Below are positions 17,805 to 47,560 of a DNA stretch of 64,000 bases, one piece after another. The stretch is from positions 626,041 through 690,040 of the forward strand of contig NZ_CP117180.1 in the NCBI RefSeq assembly GCF_033971325.1. The letters run 5' to 3'. Numbering within the stretch: the first letter of the stretch is position 1; each line of letters begins with the position of its first letter. Made by a program: the position numbers and the translations under genes. The DNA is from Hydrogenobacter sp. T-2. GTDB taxonomy: Bacteria; Aquificota; Aquificia; Aquificales; Aquificaceae. Below the pieces are notes generated by a model. It did not search any database and was not told where the DNA came from. It saw only the letters and a program-made list of their open reading frames with translations.

Positions 17805-20342
17805 TTAAATCAACCTTTCTGATGGCTTTCCGATGTAATAACCCTGGGCATAGTCAACCTTTAAGTCTTTAAGTATCTTCAGCACTTCTCCGCTTTCCAC
17901 ATGTTCCGCTATTGTTTTCATTCCCATACCCCTTGCAAGAGTAACCACAGATTCTATAAATATCCTGTCTCTCCAATCTTCTATCACATCCTTTACAAAC
18001 TCACCCTCCAGCTTTACAAAGTCAACAGGCAACTTTTTTATGTAATGAAAAGAGGAATAACCAGAGCCAAAGTCATCTATCGCAAACAGAAAGCCTTCTT
18101 CTTTGAGCTTCCTTATAAACCTTTCAAGCAGGCTGATGTTTTTTATACTTTCCCTTTCGGTAAGTTCAAAAACCACCTGCGATGGCTCCATGTTATATCT
18201 CCGCATGAGGTCCTTCATGTTTTCAATAAAGTTTTCCACAAGCATCGCTCTTGGAGAAAGATTAAGAAAGAGCTTACCTCTATAATGCGCATTGTACGCC
18301 TTCTTAAAGGCTTTTTCATATACCTGCATGTCCATCTTAAGAACTATACCAAGCCTCTCTGCCATCTCTATAAACTCTCCAGCTGGAGCTAAGTTGTCTC
18401 CTATTCTCATAAGAACCTCGTTACCGAAAACTTCACCATTCCTCAAATCCACTATGGGCTGGAAGAAGGGAACTATCTCTCCTTTATCAAAGGCTGTAAG
18501 CACCCTTATAGCCTTACTGCTGTATTCTCGGTATGATTGCACAAGCTCCTCCTGACTGGGAAGCCTTATCTTTCCCTTACCCTCCTCCTTCGCATTCCTA
18601 AGCATACTGTCCGCAATGAGGAAAAGGTCTTTCGGCGTTTCTCCGTGCTCTGGATATACCGCTATACCCATGGAAACCCTTGGTGAAATGGAACTCCCAT
18701 CTGGTAGGTTCAGAGTAATGCTTTCTATTTGCTCCTTCAGAGAGGATGCAAGGGCATAAGCATTGAGGGGGTCAGCACCAACTGCAATAATCACAAACTC
18801 ATCCCCACCGTACCTTGCAGCTATGTCAGACTTTCTTTTCCGCTCACCTATAACCCTCGCAACTTCCTTAAGAAGCATATCACCCACGTGATGACCGTAG
18901 GTGTCGTTAATAAATTTAAAGTTGTCAAGGTCAAGGATTATAAGAGAAAGTTTTCTATCAAATCTTTTCGCCCTCTCTATCTCATAGCTTAGCAGTTCCC
19001 AGAAGGTTCTTTGGTTATAAAGGGTGGTAAGCGGGTCCCTCATGGCATAGAACTCCACCTGCTCAATGTAGTCACTTATTGCCTTTGAAGAACCTATTGT
19101 GTTCACAAGAGTTGAAAGTAGACTGTTTAACACCGCCTGCTTTGCTACATCGTCCATGACACAGGATTCCACTCCAAGCCCGACTATTCCCCCAATTTGT
19201 GGTTTATCAAAAAATACAGCCTTAGTCCTGAGCCTTATTTTCTCCTTATCCTCTTCGCTGTAGATTTCCTTCCCGTTTACCGTATGATGCATGATTCGCA
19301 GTTGCCTTCCCATTAACAAAGACACTGGAAGCTCAAGGGTTATCTTCGATTTTATAAAGGCTTCAATATATCTCTCTGTTCTTTCATCTGCCTTCTTATA
19401 CCAGAATATTTCAACCTTGAGCACCTCTGGCTCAAGAAAGAGGGTAAAGACTATATCAATGGGAATTATTTGGTTCATTTCACCTATCAGATTCTTTACA
19501 TAATCGTGCCAGTTTTTTATGGTTTTTGACGTAATTATGAACCTTTCTAAGAGCTTCGCTTCCATATCCAGGATCTCCCTGTCTATGGCTATTGACTTTA
19601 TCCTTTCACCAAGATGTTGAAGAGACTCATACACTGGTTTTAGTTCCTTGTAGGAGTCTTCTATGCTTTTATGCAGGCCTTCCACATCTTCTATTGACCT
19701 TATATTCTCAATGCTTTCACTTATTTTTCTACTTAACTGTCGTAGCAAACCTATTAAGGTAAGCAAAATAAAGGTCAATACAAGAGAAAAGGCAATCAAA
19801 GGTCCTGCTATTAACGCCTTCAAAGTATGCCTTACATTTGATACAAAGCTCTGTATGTTTATACTTGTTTCCACAAGCCCGAGAACACTGCCTTCCTGAG
19901 CGTTCCAGTGACACCTTAAACACTCCGATTCAGCCTTCACAGGTTTTATGTATAGGTAAACGCCACCCTCAAACTTGTTCTGAGGCTCACCCTTGAGGGC
20001 AAGAAAATGAAGTTCCCCCTTAGCTGGCTCAGGAACTGTGCCGTAGATTTCTTTAACAAGGTCAGACCTGTATATGTTTATGTTTACAGGTGTCCCTTGG
20101 TAGGAAACTTCAAGAGCCTTCATAAACTCAAGAAGGTCCCTTCTCTCCCAACCCCTTTTCATAACCTGATACATGGAACTGAATACCTGCTTTGAGATGC
20201 CATCTGCGGTCTGGCGGGCAGTTTCCTTAATGAAGTCGTCCATGTAACGCACAGCCACCACATAAAGGACCATATACACGGATAAGGTTAGAAGGATATA
20301 AACCAATATTATGCGAAATATCAGGCTTTTTTCCTTTTCCAT
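17805..20342 (-). CDS. Membrane-bound GGDEF-EAL protein with a CXXCH (haem c-type) periplasmic sensor domain
   Basis: Predicted cyclic-di-GMP turnover enzyme, 845 residues. Layout: TM1 (about 8-31); periplasmic domain (about 35-180) resembling the Tll0287-like/DUF3365 haem sensor with Cys141-Leu-Arg-Cys144-His145; TM2 (about 185-205); coiled region; GGDEF (about 430-585) with an intact ARYGGDEFV signature; EAL (about 600-845) in which NEVLMR, NLSP, ELTERE, IDDFGSGYS, KLEGEF, AEHVE and AQGYYIGKP keep the metal and catalytic residues. The start is ATG 20342 with TATAAT (20351-20356) just upstream; a longer frame to 20393 would run into the IS982 transposase gene. The haem assignment rests on the CXXCH alone. 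Confidence 0.88.
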   Translation of the reverse strand: MEKEKSLIFRIILVYILLTLSVYMVLYVVAVRYMDDFIKETARQTADGISKQVFSSMYQVMKRGWERRDLLEFMKALEVSYQGTPVNINIYRSDLVKEIYGTVPEPAKGELHFLALKGEPQNKFEGGVYLYIKPVKAESECLRCHWNAQEGSVLGLVETSINIQSFVSNVRHTLKALIAGPLIAFSLVLTFILLTLIGLLRQLSRKISESIENIRSIEDVEGLHKSIEDSYKELKPVYESLQHLGERIKSIAIDREILDMEAKLLERFIITSKTIKNWHDYVKNLIGEMNQIIPIDIVFTLFLEPEVLKVEIFWYKKADERTERYIEAFIKSKITLELPVSLLMGRQLRIMHHTVNGKEIYSEEDKEKIRLRTKAVFFDKPQIGGIVGLGVESCVMDDVAKQAVLNSLLSTLVNTIGSSKAISDYIEQVEFYAMRDPLTTLYNQRTFWELLSYEIERAKRFDRKLSLIILDLDNFKFINDTYGHHVGDMLLKEVARVIGERKRKSDIAARYGGDEFVIIAVGADPLNAYALASSLKEQIESITLNLPDGSSISPRVSMGIAVYPEHGETPKDLFLIADSMLRNAKEEGKGKIRLPSQEELVQSYREYSSKAIRVLTAFDKGEIVPFFQPIVDLRNGEVFGNEVLMRIGDNLAPAGEFIEMAERLGIVLKMDMQVYEKAFKKAYNAHYRGKLFLNLSPRAMLVENFIENMKDLMRRYNMEPSQVVFELTERESIKNISLLERFIRKLKEEGFLFAIDDFGSGYSSFHYIKKLPVDFVKLEGEFVKDVIEDWRDRIFIESVVTLARGMGMKTIAEHVESGEVLKILKDLKVDYAQGYYIGKPSERLI

Positions 20343-20356: not shown

Positions 20357-20371
20357 AACGCAAGTTGTAAG

Positions 20372-21208
20372 TTATATTAGGTTCATTTTCCACATTCTAT
20401 ACAGATTATAGGAAACCACAGCGGTATAGATTTTCACAAGAAGCCCATTCAGGCTAACAGAATAAGGTCTCATACCGATAAACCTTTTAAGGACACTAAA
20501 CACACTCTCCGCAAGCCTCCTGTATAACCTCTTTGCATACTCAATCCACCCACCCTCATATCTGCTTTCCTTTGTACTCCTTAATGGGTTAAGCACTATG
20601 CCCTCTTCCTTCAAGATATCCTCCATCAGATAATTCTTGTATGCCTTATCACATATGATTTCCTTACTTTCTACACTGTAAAAGCTCATGTTTGCCAAAC
20701 CATCAATATCATGCCTACTCCCCTCAAGTAGATGAACCTCTCTAATTAAACCCTTAGAGTCCATAAGTGCGTTTAGCTTAAGCCCGTAAAAGTATTCTCT
20801 CTTGCCTGGTGTATATCCTCTGTATAGCTCACCTTTTAATGTTTTGCATGTCCATATGCGTGCATTCTCACACACTTTCACTGGCATGCTATCAATTAGG
20901 TAATATCTTTCATCCACCTGTGGTAGAGATGCGAGTTTTAATATGATGGTTTGCATATAAGGTAGCAGTTTTTCAAGTCTTCTTGAGAAGGTAGATTTAT
21001 CAGGGACTTTAGGGAAGAGATGACTACAGAAACTTTTAAGCCAATCAAGAGCCTTTGAGTAGTTTGCACAAAAATCTATGTGGGCTATAACTGCCATTGT
21101 TAACACCTCCGAGTTAGATATTACCGTTTGTGGTTCTTCACGAAGTCTAAGTTCCTTAAGCAAGTCGTCTATAATTACAAAGTATGTTATTATTCTATCT
21201 TCTGTCAT
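20372..21208 (-). CDS. IS982-family transposase
   Basis: A 278-residue transposase with the IS982 signature: the first catalytic Asp in YYLIDSMPVKVCENARI, then GKREYFYGLKLNALMD, LLEGSRHDIDGL, the second Asp in IICDKAYKNY, and the Glu in RLAESVFSVLKRFIGMRPYS. Length and order fit the family. The frame is intact. The ribosome-binding site GGGAGG, 10 bases before ATG 21208, is enclosed in a hairpin (next entry). The stop lies inside the left inverted repeat. Confidence 0.9.
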   Translation of the reverse strand: MTEDRIITYFVIIDDLLKELRLREEPQTVISNSEVLTMAVIAHIDFCANYSKALDWLKSFCSHLFPKVPDKSTFSRRLEKLLPYMQTIILKLASLPQVDERYYLIDSMPVKVCENARIWTCKTLKGELYRGYTPGKREYFYGLKLNALMDSKGLIREVHLLEGSRHDIDGLANMSFYSVESKEIICDKAYKNYLMEDILKEEGIVLNPLRSTKESRYEGGWIEYAKRLYRRLAESVFSVLKRFIGMRPYSVSLNGLLVKIYTAVVSYNLYRMWKMNLI

Positions 21209-21216
21209 TTTTGCAC

Positions 21217-21244
21217 CTCCCTATGGGGATGCTCCATAGGGAGC
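21217..21244 (-). promoter_or_regulatory. Hairpin that encloses the transposase ribosome-binding site
   Basis: On the minus strand CTCCTATGG (21243-21235) can pair with CCATAGGGAG (21227-21218) with one bulged base; the 3' arm contains the GGGAGG Shine-Dalgarno site of the transposase. In IS10, IS50 and IS200 such hairpins form only in transcripts that enter from outside and keep them from being translated. On the plus strand the same hairpin is followed by CTTTTTT and could act as a terminator. Confidence 0.55.
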
Positions 21245-21282
21245 TTTTTTACCACATCTCTTTATAACTTGCAACTCGGGTT

Positions 21283-22957
21283 ATAATAATATGGCAAAAC
21301 TGGAGATTTATACCTTCTCCTGCAGCCTCTGTGGCAACCATGACCTGAGTTTTCTCCTTGAATTCCTTCTCTGCTCCAATCCTTTCCTCTAAGCTCATCC
21401 CACCATGTATATAGCTCACCGAGTAGCCCCAAGACCTTAATTTTTCAACAAGATAGTCCAAAGTGTCCTTTGATTCGGTAAATATGAGTATCTTTTCGTT
21501 TCCTTGCATTTCTCTTATCTTCTTTAGACCCTCCTCTATAGCCTTTCTGAGTTCTTGTAGCTTTACTTCCCTTTCCTCCTTGACTATCCTCTTAGCTCTT
21601 TCAATTAGACCGCTTATAACCCATATCTCTCTTCTTAGTTCCTCTGGATTCTCTGCAAGGGTTAGTGTTTCCCATTCTTCCTCTTCCTTCCACCTCTCTT
21701 CCTCTTCGTAGTCCTCTACCTCCTCAAAGTCCACCAAAAGGTTCCTTTTTTGCATTTTAGACTCTTTCAATAGGCTTTCAAGCCTTCTTTTCCTTCTCTC
21801 AAGAGATTTCCATAGGGCATAGGTGCTTGATGCCATCCTTCTTTGGAGGATCAAAAGGGCAAAGGCTACGTTTCTCTTTTGGTCTCTACCCTTCATAGCC
21901 TTGTTATATTGATGTAGCACATACTTAGAAAGTTCATTGTATAGCTCTTTTTCTTCCTGAGAAAGCCTGAATTTTATCGTCTTTGCATAACGGTTTGTAA
22001 ATATGGGCTTGCCATCAAAGTCCCTCAGGTTTTCCTTTAGTCTCCTTATAAAAAGCGGATTGTCTCCCCTTTCAATAGACTCTTCAATAAGCTCATAGGT
22101 TCCAAAGAACCCCGGCTCTAAAAGGTCAAGCAAAAGCCTAAAGTTTTCTGGGTTTCCTCTGTGAGGTGTTGCAGTAAGAAATAGGAAGTGTATTGTGTTT
22201 TTTGACAGGATTTCACCGAGTCTGTATCTTTCTGTTCTTGAAGTCTTGTTCCCATAAACATAAGCAGACATCTTGTGGGCTTCGTCCACTATAACCAAGT
22301 CCCAGTGGGTAGAGTTCAAAGAGGGTAATATGTCCTCTTGTTTTGCAAAGTCCATAGAGGTTATCACCTGCTTTTCTGTTTCCCAAGGGTTTTCACCATA
22401 GATTGACCTAAAGGTATTCCTGTCTACGGAGTAAAAGGTTTCTTGAAACTTTTCCTTTAACTCTCTTATCCATTGGTCTTTTAGGTGCCCTGGGACAACT
22501 ATTAGGATACGGTTTGCAAGGCCACGCAGTTTTAGTTCCTTTATTACAAGACCTGCCATTATGGTCTTGCCAGCTCCAGGGTCATCCGCTTATAAGAAAT
22601 CTTATCTTTGGAAGTTTAAGGATATGACCGTATACCGCTTCTATTTGATGTGGCAGTGGGTCAACCTTTGAAATGTTCATTCCCAGAAGTGGGTCAAAGA
22701 TAGAAGCCAATCTAAAACGCAGGGCTTCCGTAGCCAAAAAGGCTTCCAGTCCATCCTCGGTAAAGCAGAGGGAAGTATCTACTATCCTTATTTTTTGAAC
22801 CTCATCCTTTGATATTAGTTGGTCTACATACGTCTTAGATTCTACGGTTGCACCAACTATGCGTATGTAATCTTGAAAATACTCAACACTTTTTTATCTC
22901 CACCGGCTCATGCCAAAAGGGACCTTCAAGCACCAAACCTTCTTTTAGCTCTAACAT
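21283..22957 (-). pseudogene. SNF2-type (DrmD/RapA-like) superfamily II helicase, frameshifted twice and truncated by IS982
   Basis: Starting at ATG 22957 the minus strand encodes MLELKEGLVLEGPFWHEPVEIKK, then, after an extra base in an A6 run (22890-22895), VEYFQDYIRIVGATVES...IFDPLLGMNISKVDPLPHQ...LKLPKIRFLI, then, after another extra base near 22590-22594, ADDPGAGKTIMAG. The rest is an SF2 helicase: Walker A, motif II VIVDEAHK, motif III FLTATPHRG, a helical insert, and helicase-C with ATEAAGEGINLQFCH, where IS982 interrupts it. The sequence beyond the element is unrelated, so the C-terminal part (such proteins are often about 1,000 residues) is gone. Related helicases occur in restriction and DISARM-type loci. 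No partner gene survives here. Confidence 0.85.
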
Positions 22958-22980
22958 GGACAAATGTATATAATTTTAAC
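22958..22980. promoter_or_regulatory. Short divergent promoter between rpiB and the helicase relic
   Basis: The 23 bases between the two ATGs contain TATATAATTTTAA. TATAAT at 22969-22974 serves rpiB; the complementary strand reads AAATTATATA and could serve the helicase gene. There is no room for a 5' leader with a Shine-Dalgarno site on either side. Confidence 0.45.
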
Positions 22981-27086: not shown

Positions 27087-27791
27087 TCATAACAGCTCTC
27101 TTAGGTTTATTCTGCCCTCATATATTGCCTTTCCAACCACCACTCCTTCCACTATACCCATGAGCTTTTTTACGTCCTCAAGACTTGCCACACCTCCAGA
27201 GGCAAGCACGGGTTTTTTTGTATAGCCTTTAAACTCCACATAAGGTTTTGTATCCACACCCTCAAGGGTGCCATCCCTGTCTATGTTGGTGTAAAGATAA
27301 CCCCATATGGGTATGTTTTCGTATTTTAGAGCCAGCTCCTGCGGGCTTGTAGAGCTCTCCTCCTTCCAACCACCTACCGCCACCTTTCCACCCTTTGAAT
27401 CCACAGCCAATATAACCCTTTCTGGAAAAAGCTCCACCATCCTTTCAAAGGTTCTTGGCTCTCTTACTGCCAAAGTGCCAACCACAAAAAACTCTATTCC
27501 TTCCTCGTGCAAGACCTTACAGGTTTCCACGCTTCTTATACCACCGCCAACCTCAATAGAGCCAGAAAAGGCTTTCCTTATAAGTCTAATGGAAGGGAGG
27601 TTCAGTGGCATACCCTCAAGACTTCCATCAAGGTCCACCACATGAAGTCTTTTAAAACCGAGCTCCTCAAAGAGCTTTGCCATATCCTCGGGAGAGCTTG
27701 AATAGACCTTTGTCTTTTCAAAATCACCTTTAAAGAGCCTTACTACTTTACCTTCCTTTAGGTCAATGGCGGGTATTATAAAGTTTTTCAT
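27087..27791 (-). CDS. hisA: HisA, phosphoribosylformimino-5-aminoimidazole carboxamide ribotide isomerase
   Basis: TIM-barrel isomerase of histidine synthesis. The catalytic base Asp is in IPAIDLKEGKVVRL (about 8) and the acid Asp in LYTNIDRDGTLEGVD (about 171); VGGGIRSVE and ASGGVASLEDV bind the phosphates. 234 residues. The start overlaps the stop of the upstream GGDEF-EAL gene by 4 bases. No other his gene is nearby. Confidence 0.96.
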   Translation of the reverse strand: MKNFIIPAIDLKEGKVVRLFKGDFEKTKVYSSSPEDMAKLFEELGFKRLHVVDLDGSLEGMPLNLPSIRLIRKAFSGSIEVGGGIRSVETCKVLHEEGIEFFVVGTLAVREPRTFERMVELFPERVILAVDSKGGKVAVGGWKEESSTSPQELALKYENIPIWGYLYTNIDRDGTLEGVDTKPYVEFKGYTKKPVLASGGVASLEDVKKLMGIVEGVVVGKAIYEGRINLRELL

Positions 27792-29017
27792 AACAGTTGA
27801 GGTCTTCCTAAGTAAAAGCCCTGTGCCATATCCACCTTGAGGCTTTTTATAAACTCAAATTCCTCTTCATTTTCCACCTGTTCCACAACCACCTTAAAGC
27901 CAAGCCTTTTCATCCCAACAACCACCCATTTTAACATAGAACGTGCCTCTCTCAAGAAAAAACCATCAAGTTTTACCACGTCTGGTTTTGTTTTAATAAG
28001 CCTCTCTACAGAAGAGTATTCTACGCCAAAGTCATCCACCGCAATTCCAAATCCATAGCTCCTCGCTTCCTTTACAAGTTCTAATAGGTCTTCAGTGCTT
28101 CCTGTCATCTTACCTTCAGAAAGCTCTAACACCACTCTGGATGGTTCAATTCCGTAAGAGGTTACTTCCTTGTAAAAGTCTAACAGCTTGAGCCTGCCCT
28201 TTGCTACGAAGTTAACAAGGTTGTAAGGGAAATTTACATACATCTTACCCTCAAGACCATAGGCTGTAAACTTTGAAAAAGCCTTCTGAAGCACCATTTC
28301 CTCAAAGGGACTTATAAAGGAGGTTTTTAAAAGGTCTTCTATGAAACAACCAGCAGGCAGGACTCTTCCATCCTCCATTACAAGCCTCATAAGCACTTCA
28401 TAGCCTTCTATCTTTCCACTCTCAAGGTTATATATGGGTTGAAAGGCAGGCTCTACAAGTTTTTTCTTAAGAGCTTCAATGAGGGTCTGGTAGTCAATGG
28501 CTCTCTTTGGCAGTTCCTTTTGAATAAGCACCATATCGCCACCGCCTCTACTTTTAACCTCCGCCACGTGTGCTTCCATAAGGTCAAGCACAGCCTCCAC
28601 GCTTTGACCTGTAGGCACAAGGCTGTATATACCAATAGTAACGCTTATCTTTGAGTTAAAATCAAGGACTTCTATTCTACTTTTTATCCTTTTTGCAACC
28701 TTTTCAGCTCCTTTTGCGTCAGAGTTTGGAAGTAATATAAGGAAAGAGCTACCTTTGTATTTGCCTGCTATATCGCTCTTCCTTATACTGTTTGATATAA
28801 CTTCGGATATTTTCAAAAGAACCTCATTCCCATATGCGTATCCACTGCCTTTGTTTATATGTTTCATGTTATCCACATCCAGAAGAAGCACAGAAAGACT
28901 TTCTCCCTTTCTTTCGTAGAGGTAGAACAACTTTTGCATGTACTCGAGGAGGCAAGCTATGTTTGACACTAAAGTTTGTCTGTAGAGCTCCAAACAGCTT
29001 AGATTTTTCCTCACCAC
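27788..29017 (-). CDS. Cytoplasmic GGDEF-EAL protein with a degenerate GGDEF motif
   Basis: A 409-residue protein without membrane segments. The N-terminal GGDEF domain (about 30-165) has lost its signature: GKYKGSSFLILL replaces RYGGDEF, so cyclase activity is unlikely. The EAL domain (about 175-409) keeps EVLM, NFPYN, ELSEGK, AVDDFG, KLDGFF, VEQVEN and AQGFYLGRP, the metal and base residues, so it may be a phosphodiesterase. It may respond to GTP bound in the dead domain, as in some characterised proteins, but that is inference. Divergent from hslV, from which it is separated by 21 bases. Confidence 0.88.
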   Translation of the reverse strand: MVRKNLSCLELYRQTLVSNIACLLEYMQKLFYLYERKGESLSVLLLDVDNMKHINKGSGYAYGNEVLLKISEVISNSIRKSDIAGKYKGSSFLILLPNSDAKGAEKVAKRIKSRIEVLDFNSKISVTIGIYSLVPTGQSVEAVLDLMEAHVAEVKSRGGGDMVLIQKELPKRAIDYQTLIEALKKKLVEPAFQPIYNLESGKIEGYEVLMRLVMEDGRVLPAGCFIEDLLKTSFISPFEEMVLQKAFSKFTAYGLEGKMYVNFPYNLVNFVAKGRLKLLDFYKEVTSYGIEPSRVVLELSEGKMTGSTEDLLELVKEARSYGFGIAVDDFGVEYSSVERLIKTKPDVVKLDGFFLREARSMLKWVVVGMKRLGFKVVVEQVENEEEFEFIKSLKVDMAQGFYLGRPQLL

Positions 29018-45654: not shown

Positions 45655-46977
45655 ATGCTGTTAACTACTCTTGAGTTAGCTAAGCTTCTTGGAGGAAGGC
45701 ATATTGGGAAGCCTGCTTCTTTTAGTGGTTTCTCAATAGACAGTAGAAGCGTGCAAGAGGGTCAGCTGTTTGTGGCAATAAAGGGCAAGGTCCACGATGG
45801 ACATGACTATGCCTTGCAGGCAATTCAGAAAGGAGCGGCGGGGGTTATCTGTGAGAGAGAGCTTGAGCTACCAAAGGATACTCCTCAGATAATAGTGGAA
45901 AGTGCCTTGAAAGCTCTAAGAAGGTTTGCAAGTTGGAAGAGGGAAAACTTTAAGGGAAAGGTTGTTGCCATTGCAGGGTCTGCAGGCAAAACCACCACGA
46001 AGGAACTTACCGCCTTTTTGCTTTCTAAGGTAGGAAAGGTTTGCAAAACGCCCAGAAACTACAATTCCCAAATCGGTGTCCCTCTCTCTGTAGCTAACTT
46101 TGAAGAGGACTGTGATTTCTGGGTTGTAGAGATGGGTGCAAGCCAAAAGGGAGATGTAAAGAGGCTCGTGGAACTGGTAAAGCCACACATAAGAGCAATA
46201 ACCGCCATAGGCGAAGAGCATCTTGAGACCTTTGGATGCCTTGATGATGTGGTGCTTGGAAACGGCGAAGTGTTCTACCAGATGCAGGAGGAAGATTGTG
46301 GCATATGCCCTGCTTATGTATCTCACTGCTACCATATACCCAGAAAGTTGGTTTTTGGAGATGGCAAGTTCAAAGCGGAAGACCTAAAGCTTTCCGAGGA
46401 GGGTGTGAGCTTTATAGTGGACGGAGTGCAAGTCTTTATTCCAGTGCCAAGTCTTGCGATAGTAGAGAATGCCCTCTGTGCCCTTGTCATACTTGAGGCT
46501 TTGGGTATAAACTGGAAGGGTCTTTGTGGACACCTTTCGGACTTTCACCCAGTGGAAGGTCGTTTTCGCATCCTAAGGAAGCAAGACCTACTCCTCATAG
46601 ATGACGCCTACAATGCGAACCCTCCCTCTGTAAGGATGGCTCTGAGAAGTTTGAGCCTTTTCAATGATAAAAAAATTGCGGTCTTAGGTGATATGTTAGA
46701 GCTTGGAGCGGACTCTGAGAAATACCATAGGGAAGTGGGAAGGCTCTGTGCAGAGCTTGGTATAGATGTGTGTCTTTTCTTTGGAGAGAATATGAGGCAT
46801 GCTTACGAAGAGTGCAGAAAGCGTAAGGAAGGGTGCTTCTTTTTTAAATCTCATGAGCAAGTTCTTCGTTGGCTTCTTTGGAATATTCATGAAAAAGCGG
46901 TTATACTTTTTAAAGGTTCAAGAGGTATGAGTATGGAGCAGTTAGTGGAGGGGATGATTAATGGCAAAGTTTGTTGA
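45655..46977 (+). CDS. murF: UDP-N-acetylmuramoyl-tripeptide--D-alanyl-D-alanine ligase
   Basis: Cytoplasmic ligase completing the peptidoglycan pentapeptide. GFSIDSRSVQEGQLFVAIKG in the N-terminal domain, the P-loop AIAGSAGKTTTKEL (about 105), NYNSQIGVPLSV, WVVEMGASQKGDV, and VEGRFRILRKQDLLLIDDAYNANPPSV in domain 3. 440 residues. Overlaps the PilZ gene by 17 bases. No other mur gene is adjacent. Confidence 0.94.
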   Translation: MLLTTLELAKLLGGRHIGKPASFSGFSIDSRSVQEGQLFVAIKGKVHDGHDYALQAIQKGAAGVICERELELPKDTPQIIVESALKALRRFASWKRENFKGKVVAIAGSAGKTTTKELTAFLLSKVGKVCKTPRNYNSQIGVPLSVANFEEDCDFWVVEMGASQKGDVKRLVELVKPHIRAITAIGEEHLETFGCLDDVVLGNGEVFYQMQEEDCGICPAYVSHCYHIPRKLVFGDGKFKAEDLKLSEEGVSFIVDGVQVFIPVPSLAIVENALCALVILEALGINWKGLCGHLSDFHPVEGRFRILRKQDLLLIDDAYNANPPSVRMALRSLSLFNDKKIAVLGDMLELGADSEKYHREVGRLCAELGIDVCLFFGENMRHAYEECRKRKEGCFFFKSHEQVLRWLLWNIHEKAVILFKGSRGMSMEQLVEGMINGKVC

Positions 46978-47560
46978 TGTTTATAAGATACTTGAAGGTG
47001 GCATCCTCTTCCATACAAGGCTTGAGAAACTCAAATATCAGGAGGGTATGCTTTATCTGAAGACAACGCCCTTGGCGGGAAGGTTTATATTGACAGGAGA
47101 CATTATAAACCTTGGATACATGAGCTTCGTTATTCCGGGAAGAATAGTAGGTAAAAGCAACCAGATAATAGTAAACATCTTCTACACAGGTGAAGGGAAA
47201 CTTGGAGATAGGAGCAAACCAAGGGTTCCAGTCCAAAAGGATCAAACCTTTATGGTTCTTCTTAAAATTGACGGTGTCTTCCGTGCCTTTGTGCCTCTTG
47301 ATATATCAGAAGGCGGTTTCTCTCTTGTGGTGACAGATACCTCCATAATACCAGAAATGCTAAATAAGAGATTAGATTTCAAAATTACGGGTAGGGAAGA
47401 GCTTTCGGGAGTATCTGGTAGTGCAAGGCTTGTAGGTATAATGGAGGAAAACACCTCTACTTCAAAGCTATCTTTTGAAGTAGATGTGGACGATGTCAGT
47501 TCTACGAAGATTAGGCTATACGCTATAAATACTATTAAGAGGTTGTTAAGTGATGCTTGA
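46961..47560 (+). CDS. PilZ domain protein (cyclic-di-GMP effector, YcgR-like layout)
   Basis: 199 residues. The first 80 form a beta-rich YcgR-N-like domain; the PilZ domain then shows the two binding motifs, RxxxR in GDRSKPRVP (Arg84, Arg88) and D/NxSxxG in LDISEGGFSL (Asp114-Gly118). Both are intact, so c-di-GMP binding is likely. Two GGDEF-EAL proteins in this window could control its ligand. Its start lies inside the end of murF; its last codons contain the -35 box of the efflux operon. Confidence 0.8.
   Translation: MAKFVDVYKILEGGILFHTRLEKLKYQEGMLYLKTTPLAGRFILTGDIINLGYMSFVIPGRIVGKSNQIIVNIFYTGEGKLGDRSKPRVPVQKDQTFMVLLKIDGVFRAFVPLDISEGGFSLVVTDTSIIPEMLNKRLDFKITGREELSGVSGSARLVGIMEENTSTSKLSFEVDVDDVSSTKIRLYAINTIKRLLSDA

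Follow-up and report, generated by a model that had tools for sequence, protein, structure and literature searches.

A GGDEF-EAL protein of Hydrogenobacter sp. T-2 with a predicted periplasmic haem-c Cache sensor and a candidate methionine ligand

What does a GGDEF-EAL protein sense when the domain that it exposes outside the membrane carries a CXXCH motif, and how would the signal reach its enzyme half? This question is raised by a gene in a 64,000-nucleotide stretch of the Hydrogenobacter sp. T-2 genome, here called the window. The genome is a single contig of 1.69 Mb, and the host is probably a heat-loving bacterium. Our answer is that a haem is very likely fixed permanently to the outer domain, where it would sense the redox state or nitric oxide (NO) and in this way set cyclic di-GMP (c-di-GMP).

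The gene occupies window positions 17805-20342 on the minus strand, where all of the features below also lie, and it encodes an 845-aa sCache_heme / GGDEF-EAL protein. We place the start at the Met codon at 20342, near which the alignments of homologues also begin; the open frame itself extends to a GTG at 20393. The protein consists of a membrane helix (residues ~7-33, 20244-20324), a periplasmic domain (residues 34-172, 19827-20243), a second membrane helix (residues ~173-204, 19731-19826), a linker region, a GGDEF domain (residues 433-590, 18573-19046) and an EAL domain (residues 615-840, 17823-18500), in that order, with both helices assigned by hydropathy. It has just three cysteines, at residues 141, 144 and 394. 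The original prediction had put a CXXCH motif between two membrane helices and numbered it Cys141, Cys144 and His145. This is confirmed; the motif reads CLRCH (residues 141-145, 19908-19922), and from the motif and its conservation Cys141 and Cys144 are predicted to attach a haem c with His145 as its proximal ligand.

The region upstream of the gene differs from that in a close relative, G036, whose sensor is 99% identical. Compared with G036, T-2 has an insert of ~2.6 kb (20359-22980) between an rpiB-like gene and the sensor gene, made up of an element with a DDE transposase and an incomplete helicase gene. The element occurs in the genome once more, matching 904 of 951 query bases at 100%. 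The insert ends 16 bases before the Met codon, so that the coding sequence is intact and the region upstream of it is altered; therefore, expression in T-2 may differ from that in G036.

The CXXCH motif is conserved wherever the sensor is found. Of 118 loci compared, 44 match residues 1-425 at E<=1e-3 and all 44 have CXXCH, although this number includes the window's own gene twice, L010 (99% identical) and L039 and L046, which are copies of L013 and L021. Dropping the self matches (L001 and L009) and the duplicates (L010, L039 and L046) leaves 40 rows, the query and 39 others, and C141, C144 and H145 are invariant in the same columns of all 40; the rows are not independent events, with close relatives such as L024, L026, L027 and L028, or L040, L041 and L044, being kept. 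An alignment of 38 rows, A1, which is also without L035 and L045, has identities to the query that go down to 20% and a mean column identity of 38%. The phylum contributed 38 non-self matches: 29 loci (L010-L038), one entered as L136, seven weak ones that were checked separately and a last one that forms the latter half of a broken gene, counted once as L035. CXXCH is also present in seven of seven weaker matches. As judged from these alignments, the conservation of the motif is more than chance. A fold in which the two cysteines are buried and paired had been named as the case that would speak against haem; the equal invariance of His145 (40/40 rows) makes such a fold unlikely.

The family to which the domain belongs is less easily read from Pfam. 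The Tll0287-like model, PF11845, covers only residues 119-148 of the query at 17.3 bits, below its cut-off of 24.1 bits. Among the 27 genomes of the phylum with the GGDEF-EAL type of protein, it gives a match at E<=0.001 in eight and exceeds the cut-off in one (G068, 26.7 bits). Censuses that use the model only would thus undercount the subfamily, as the protein is below the cut-off or without a match in 26 of the 27 genomes. A profile-profile comparison of the query family with 30 Tll0287-like loci nevertheless returns a probability of 97%. We read the query family as a divergent subfamily that the PF11845 model misses, with fold and motif outweighing the detection score.

An AlphaFold2 model of residues 33-170, built with A1, has a pLDDT of 91. 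In this model a short helix (107-111) overlaps the motif (model 109-113) and lies between strands 96-104 and 121-130; as modelled, the sensor has a single-Cache fold with a CXXCH insertion between strands. The top three Foldseek matches are GSU0935 (two chains) and GSU0582 of Geobacter, at E 3e-4 to 8e-4, followed by the Cache domains of WalK and CitA, with Tll0287 at rank 10; the Geobacter structures 3b42 and 3b47 are matched with TM-scores of no more than 0.41-0.47, at an rmsd of ~16-17 and identities of 14-19%. A second look with VIA gave WalK and CitA at Z 10-11 and Tll0287 (5b82) at Z 10.0, with an rmsd of 3.8 over 125 residues and 8% identity, and 3b42 and 3b47 are not among the 50 matches listed by VIA. 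The Geobacter sensors crystallized as helix-swapped dimers (PMC8396549, PMC3460858), which could explain both the high rmsd and the missing VIA matches.

The earlier likening of the domain to the Tll0287/DUF3365 family thus agrees with profile and fold, but it needs refinement in that the Met-type sensors of Geobacter are nearer than Tll0287 by profile and by Foldseek. The rest of that reading, covalent haem and a c-di-GMP output through GGDEF-EAL, is supported by sequence and model, in agreement with the profile, the fold, the CXXCH motif and the attachment genes. The latter had been suggested as a check, and the genome has one match to ResB and two to CcsA-type proteins. ResB and CcsA-type proteins suffice for the system II pathway of haem-c attachment, and the sensor is predicted to be loaded with haem.

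Which residue would be the distal ligand? With the A1 profile, 3b42 (GSU0935) is the sole meaningful entry among the PDB sequences, at a modest E of 0.0024; the other three matches, cytochrome c3 and two KLLA0E03455p chains, were set aside as motif-only or chance. The sensor domain alone gave no meaningful match to the PDB sequences. In the alignment with 3b42, CQSCH (C106, C109 and H110 of the chain) falls on CLRCH and M26 of the chain falls on Met61 (20160-20162). The haem residues of GSU0935 are Cys140, Cys143, His144 and Met60 (PMC8396549), and M26 becomes Met60 by the offset of 34 that we computed from H110 and His144. The spacing is also equal, with Met61 80 residues before Cys141 in the query and Met60 80 residues before Cys140 in GSU0935. 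Methionine is present at this position in 38 of the 40 rows, the exceptions being L035 (a gap in a broken gene) and L045 (Ser), and in six of the seven weaker matches (L195 has Leu). From the alignment, Met61 is predicted to be the distal ligand, a residue that can be named and that matches Met60 of GSU0935, even though its conservation could reflect packing and not ligation.

The cysteine that Tll0287 has in its first helix is absent from the query family, as there is no Cys at residues 34-140 in any of the 40 rows, the query included. In all 30 Tll0287-like loci of the phylum that we examined, the N-terminal helical region contains a Cys; these loci are among those matched by Pfam, and their open frames were chosen by the presence of CXXCH. 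The Cys pattern caught 29 of them, and the Cys of L180, at the same place, was found on reading. This Cys occupies one of two positions, depending on the length group (11 and 19 loci). Opposite Met61 the profile alignment has a Leu; the longer group has its Cys four positions further, off the Met61 column.

The methionine of GSU0935 and GSU0582 is reported to be bound when the haem is reduced, released on oxidation and displaced by NO and CO (PMC8396549). In the oxidised crystals, GSU0582 and one of the two GSU0935 haems have His/water, and Met is bound in only one (PMC8396549). It is by analogy with this behaviour that we propose a His145/Met61 switch. The protein would be a one-component enzyme of c-di-GMP turnover that spans the membrane and bears a haem-c Cache domain in the periplasm, and the switch would be driven mainly by redox, a reading towards which we lean with moderate confidence. 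Cys141 and Cys144 would hold the haem covalently, His145 would be its proximal ligand and Met61 the distal one. Met61 would be bound to the reduced haem and would leave upon oxidation of the iron or displacement by NO or CO. As the domain's long first helix, on which Met61 is predicted to lie, adjoins membrane helix 1, release of Met61 would let the helices shift, and the shift would be relayed by the segment that follows membrane helix 2 and by the linker domain, changing the balance between synthesis by GGDEF and hydrolysis by EAL. The direction of the signal and the enzyme activity that would prevail are points that we infer, as is redox as the main natural input.

The enzyme half is as intact as had been predicted, with Pfam scores of 140 bits for GGDEF and 203 bits for EAL, a complete GGDEF signature and the catalytic motifs of EAL present. 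In an alignment of 31 of the 32 sequences (L125, a split gene, was left out), GGDEF is kept in 30 rows and reads SSDEF in L045. Within the EAL motif, Glu and Leu are present in 31/31 rows and Arg in 30/31 (L133 has Gly); DDFG is present in 31/31, and the late Gln of EAL is kept in 30/31, the remaining sequence, L045, ending at a contig edge. These motifs make both activities, GGDEF and EAL, plausible.

Between membrane and enzyme lies a cytoplasmic linker domain (residues 245-432, 19047-19610) that is conserved across an alignment of 26 rows, in which several positions are invariant. It has no Pfam match at E<=1, and its model, with a pLDDT of 77, has no Foldseek match at E<=0.001. The VIA matches are mixed, led by a TRAPP-complex chain (Z 8.3) and then a GAF domain (7.8), with many LuxR-type and GAF domains near 7, a range that the tool calls common. 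The fold is weakly GAF-like in this model, which is only a lead, and the linker may provide a second input or serve as a transmitter. In the query Pfam detects no HAMP domain; HAMP is present in two chemotaxis fusions, L036 and L038, and below the cut-off in L050.

The sensor region is matched in 32 of the 136 genomes of the phylum (25 of the 88 good-quality ones), and 27 of the 32 have a strong match of the GGDEF-EAL type (split at E 1e-15). In a wider collection 80 of 557 relatives were kept, most of them with a match that covers GGDEF-EAL only; sensor and enzyme are both matched in several of these, Thiomicrorhabdus and a Thermodesulfobacteriaceae MAG among them, and in Calditerrivibrio the match covers part of the sensor. 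A shorter form that lacks the linker is present in MAGs titled Nitrosomonadales, Gallionellaceae, Helicobacteraceae or Helicobacter (L047-L051), and in L036 and L038 the same sensor is fused to chemotaxis signalling domains. Not all copies are whole. The ortholog in G045 (L158 2292-4829) is split into three frames, and that in G093 (L035) is also broken by frame breaks or stops. The gene looks dispensable in G045 and, barring assembly errors, seems to be in decay in some relatives.

The T-2 genome encodes other probable c-di-GMP proteins. A PilZ effector had been placed near 47 kb of the window, and a PilZ-like protein is indeed encoded at 46961-47560, ~27 kb from the sensor gene, although it scores below the Pfam cut-off (18.9 vs 22.5 bits). 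The query has 18 matches in the genome, its own gene among them, mostly over GGDEF or EAL. Together with the PilZ-like protein, these matches make a c-di-GMP network likely. By eye, RxxxR and DxSxxG-like motifs are visible in the PilZ-like protein. A second c-di-GMP-type protein, of 409 aa, is encoded in the window at 27788-29017 on the minus strand; by eye it has a degenerate KGSSF at the place of GGDEF, EVLMR and DDFG are visible, and it adjoins hisA-like and ferrochelatase-like genes.

The position of the sensor gene relative to motility genes is variable. It lies within ~13 kb of fliG in G036, G045, G046, G081 and G086; however, fliG is 200 kb away in the window's own genome and is also far in G038, G050, G079 and G001, and given these distances we make no claim of a link to a chemotaxis operon. 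By eye, CheA-, CheW-, CheY- and FliG/FliM-like genes are found a few genes from the sensor gene in G081 and G086 (L156 7280-17189 and L157 5935-15119). The CheA- and FliG-like neighbours suggest a link to motility in these two genomes.

The proposed switch would respond to NO as well as to redox, and the protein might be mainly an NO sensor, in which NO on the ferrous haem would displace the distal ligand and change c-di-GMP while redox would be incidental. We regard this as possible but rather unlikely. A preprint reports that a signalling-type member of the sCache_heme family binds NO tightly and gives no stable complex with oxygen, and it argues for NO and not redox as the input of such fusions, using a protein without an axial Cys (PMC12889525). 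There is also a weak co-occurrence across the phylum with the cytochrome cd1 gene nirS (PF02239, counted at E < 1e-100), which is present in 16/27 genomes with the sensor vs 34/109 of the others (Fisher p 0.013); a permutation within genera, to which 14 of 30 genera contribute, gives an observed 15 vs a mean of 11.0 (p 0.013). However, the signal within genera comes mostly from two genera and may mirror genome size. A control gene, fliG, is also commoner with the sensor (26/27 vs 84/109, p 0.027), so that part of the nirS signal may reflect larger genomes. Furthermore, PF02239 has no match in the T-2 genome, and a strong nirS match is missing in 11 of the 27 genomes whose protein is of the GGDEF-EAL type, one of them being G015, which has weaker, partial matches in a fragmented assembly. 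The co-occurrence leans weakly to NO and the absence of PF02239 in T-2 leans the other way, although NO could be supplied by neighbours or another enzyme. No NO reductase was recognised by eye among the four COX1-family matches of the host genome. As a separate observation, L147 (1366-2685) encodes a distant haem-copper-oxidase-like protein of 439 aa that is just above the Pfam cut-off (35.1 vs 34.8 bits).

These four COX1-family matches, together with the well-known haem-based c-di-GMP enzymes that sense oxygen (PMC8846402), could instead point to an oxygen or CO sensor that uses the same haem; two tested members of the family form no stable oxygen complex (PMC12889525), and we consider this reading improbable. 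It is also hard to believe that the haem is bound only for electron passage or stability, with the c-di-GMP output independent of it. Redox roles have been proposed for stand-alone members (PMC12889525), but the query has two membrane helices and a conserved linker, the enzyme motifs are intact in nearly all of the relatives examined, and the same domain is also fused to chemotaxis signalling domains. Finally, Cys141 and Cys144 might form a haem-free disulfide redox switch, a role that a periplasmic Cys pair has in the CSS-motif phosphodiesterase PdeC (PMC8846402). The motif of the query reads C-L-R-C-H, so the CSS motif of the redox phosphodiesterases is not found in it, and the invariant His145, the profile and fold matches to haem-c domains and the presence of haem attachment genes make such a switch very improbable indeed. 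The mainly redox-driven His145/Met61 switch is the reading that we prefer.

If this switch exists, it would give a c-type-haem c-di-GMP enzyme with a predicted ligand mechanism centred on Met61. C-di-GMP governs swimming vs attachment, and in thermophiles of the phylum the switch would make this choice depend on redox state or NO in the periplasm. We put forward only tentatively, as a proposal that may well prove wrong, that a c-di-GMP enzyme of a thermophile is gated from the periplasm by a His/Met haem-c switch and that the haem-Cache proteins of the phylum are divided into signalling fusions with Met, which would be redox/NO switches, and Tll0287-like proteins with Cys, which would be electron carriers. 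The Met/Cys contrast would be a testable rule that separates sensors from electron carriers. Part of the picture is already known. The sCache_heme family was described in the 2026 preprint, which names GGDEF/EAL fusions and reports an enrichment in Aquificota (PMC12889525), and the Geobacter and Tll0287 structures are available. The sixth haem ligand in the preprint is Cys or water; its main text does not contain the word "methionine" and apparently does not consider a Met ligand (PMC12889525). What the sequences add here is the predicted Met ligand and the low PF11845 scores of the query and most of its GGDEF-EAL relatives. A literature search, with most subscription papers outside it, found none on the Aquificota protein or on haem-c GGDEF-EAL activity. 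In the text available of a 2022 review of c-di-GMP sensing, the words "c-type" and "cytochrome" are absent and the oxygen/redox table has no c-type haem sensor (PMC8846402).

Among known systems, DosP/PdeO works alike in that a haem-based sensor sits on a GGDEF-EAL protein, but by sequence the match is limited to the catalytic half (query 429-840). The haem of DosP/PdeO is non-covalent and is held in a cytoplasmic PAS domain. Tll0287 (5B82) shares the Cache/PAS-like fold and has a haem c, but it is a stand-alone protein with Cys as distal ligand (PMC12889525). The sCache_heme proteins have, like the query, a Cache fold with a CXXCH insertion and can be fused to signalling domains (PMC12889525); the query family differs from them in the Met in the first helix, and the query falls under the Pfam cut-off. 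GSU0935 and GSU0582 (3B42, 3B47) have a periplasmic domain between two membrane helices with CXXCH near its end, as does the query, and in the alignment their Met60/His144 correspond to Met61/His145. Their output is to chemotaxis through HAMP, whereas that of the query would be through a conserved linker domain to GGDEF-EAL.
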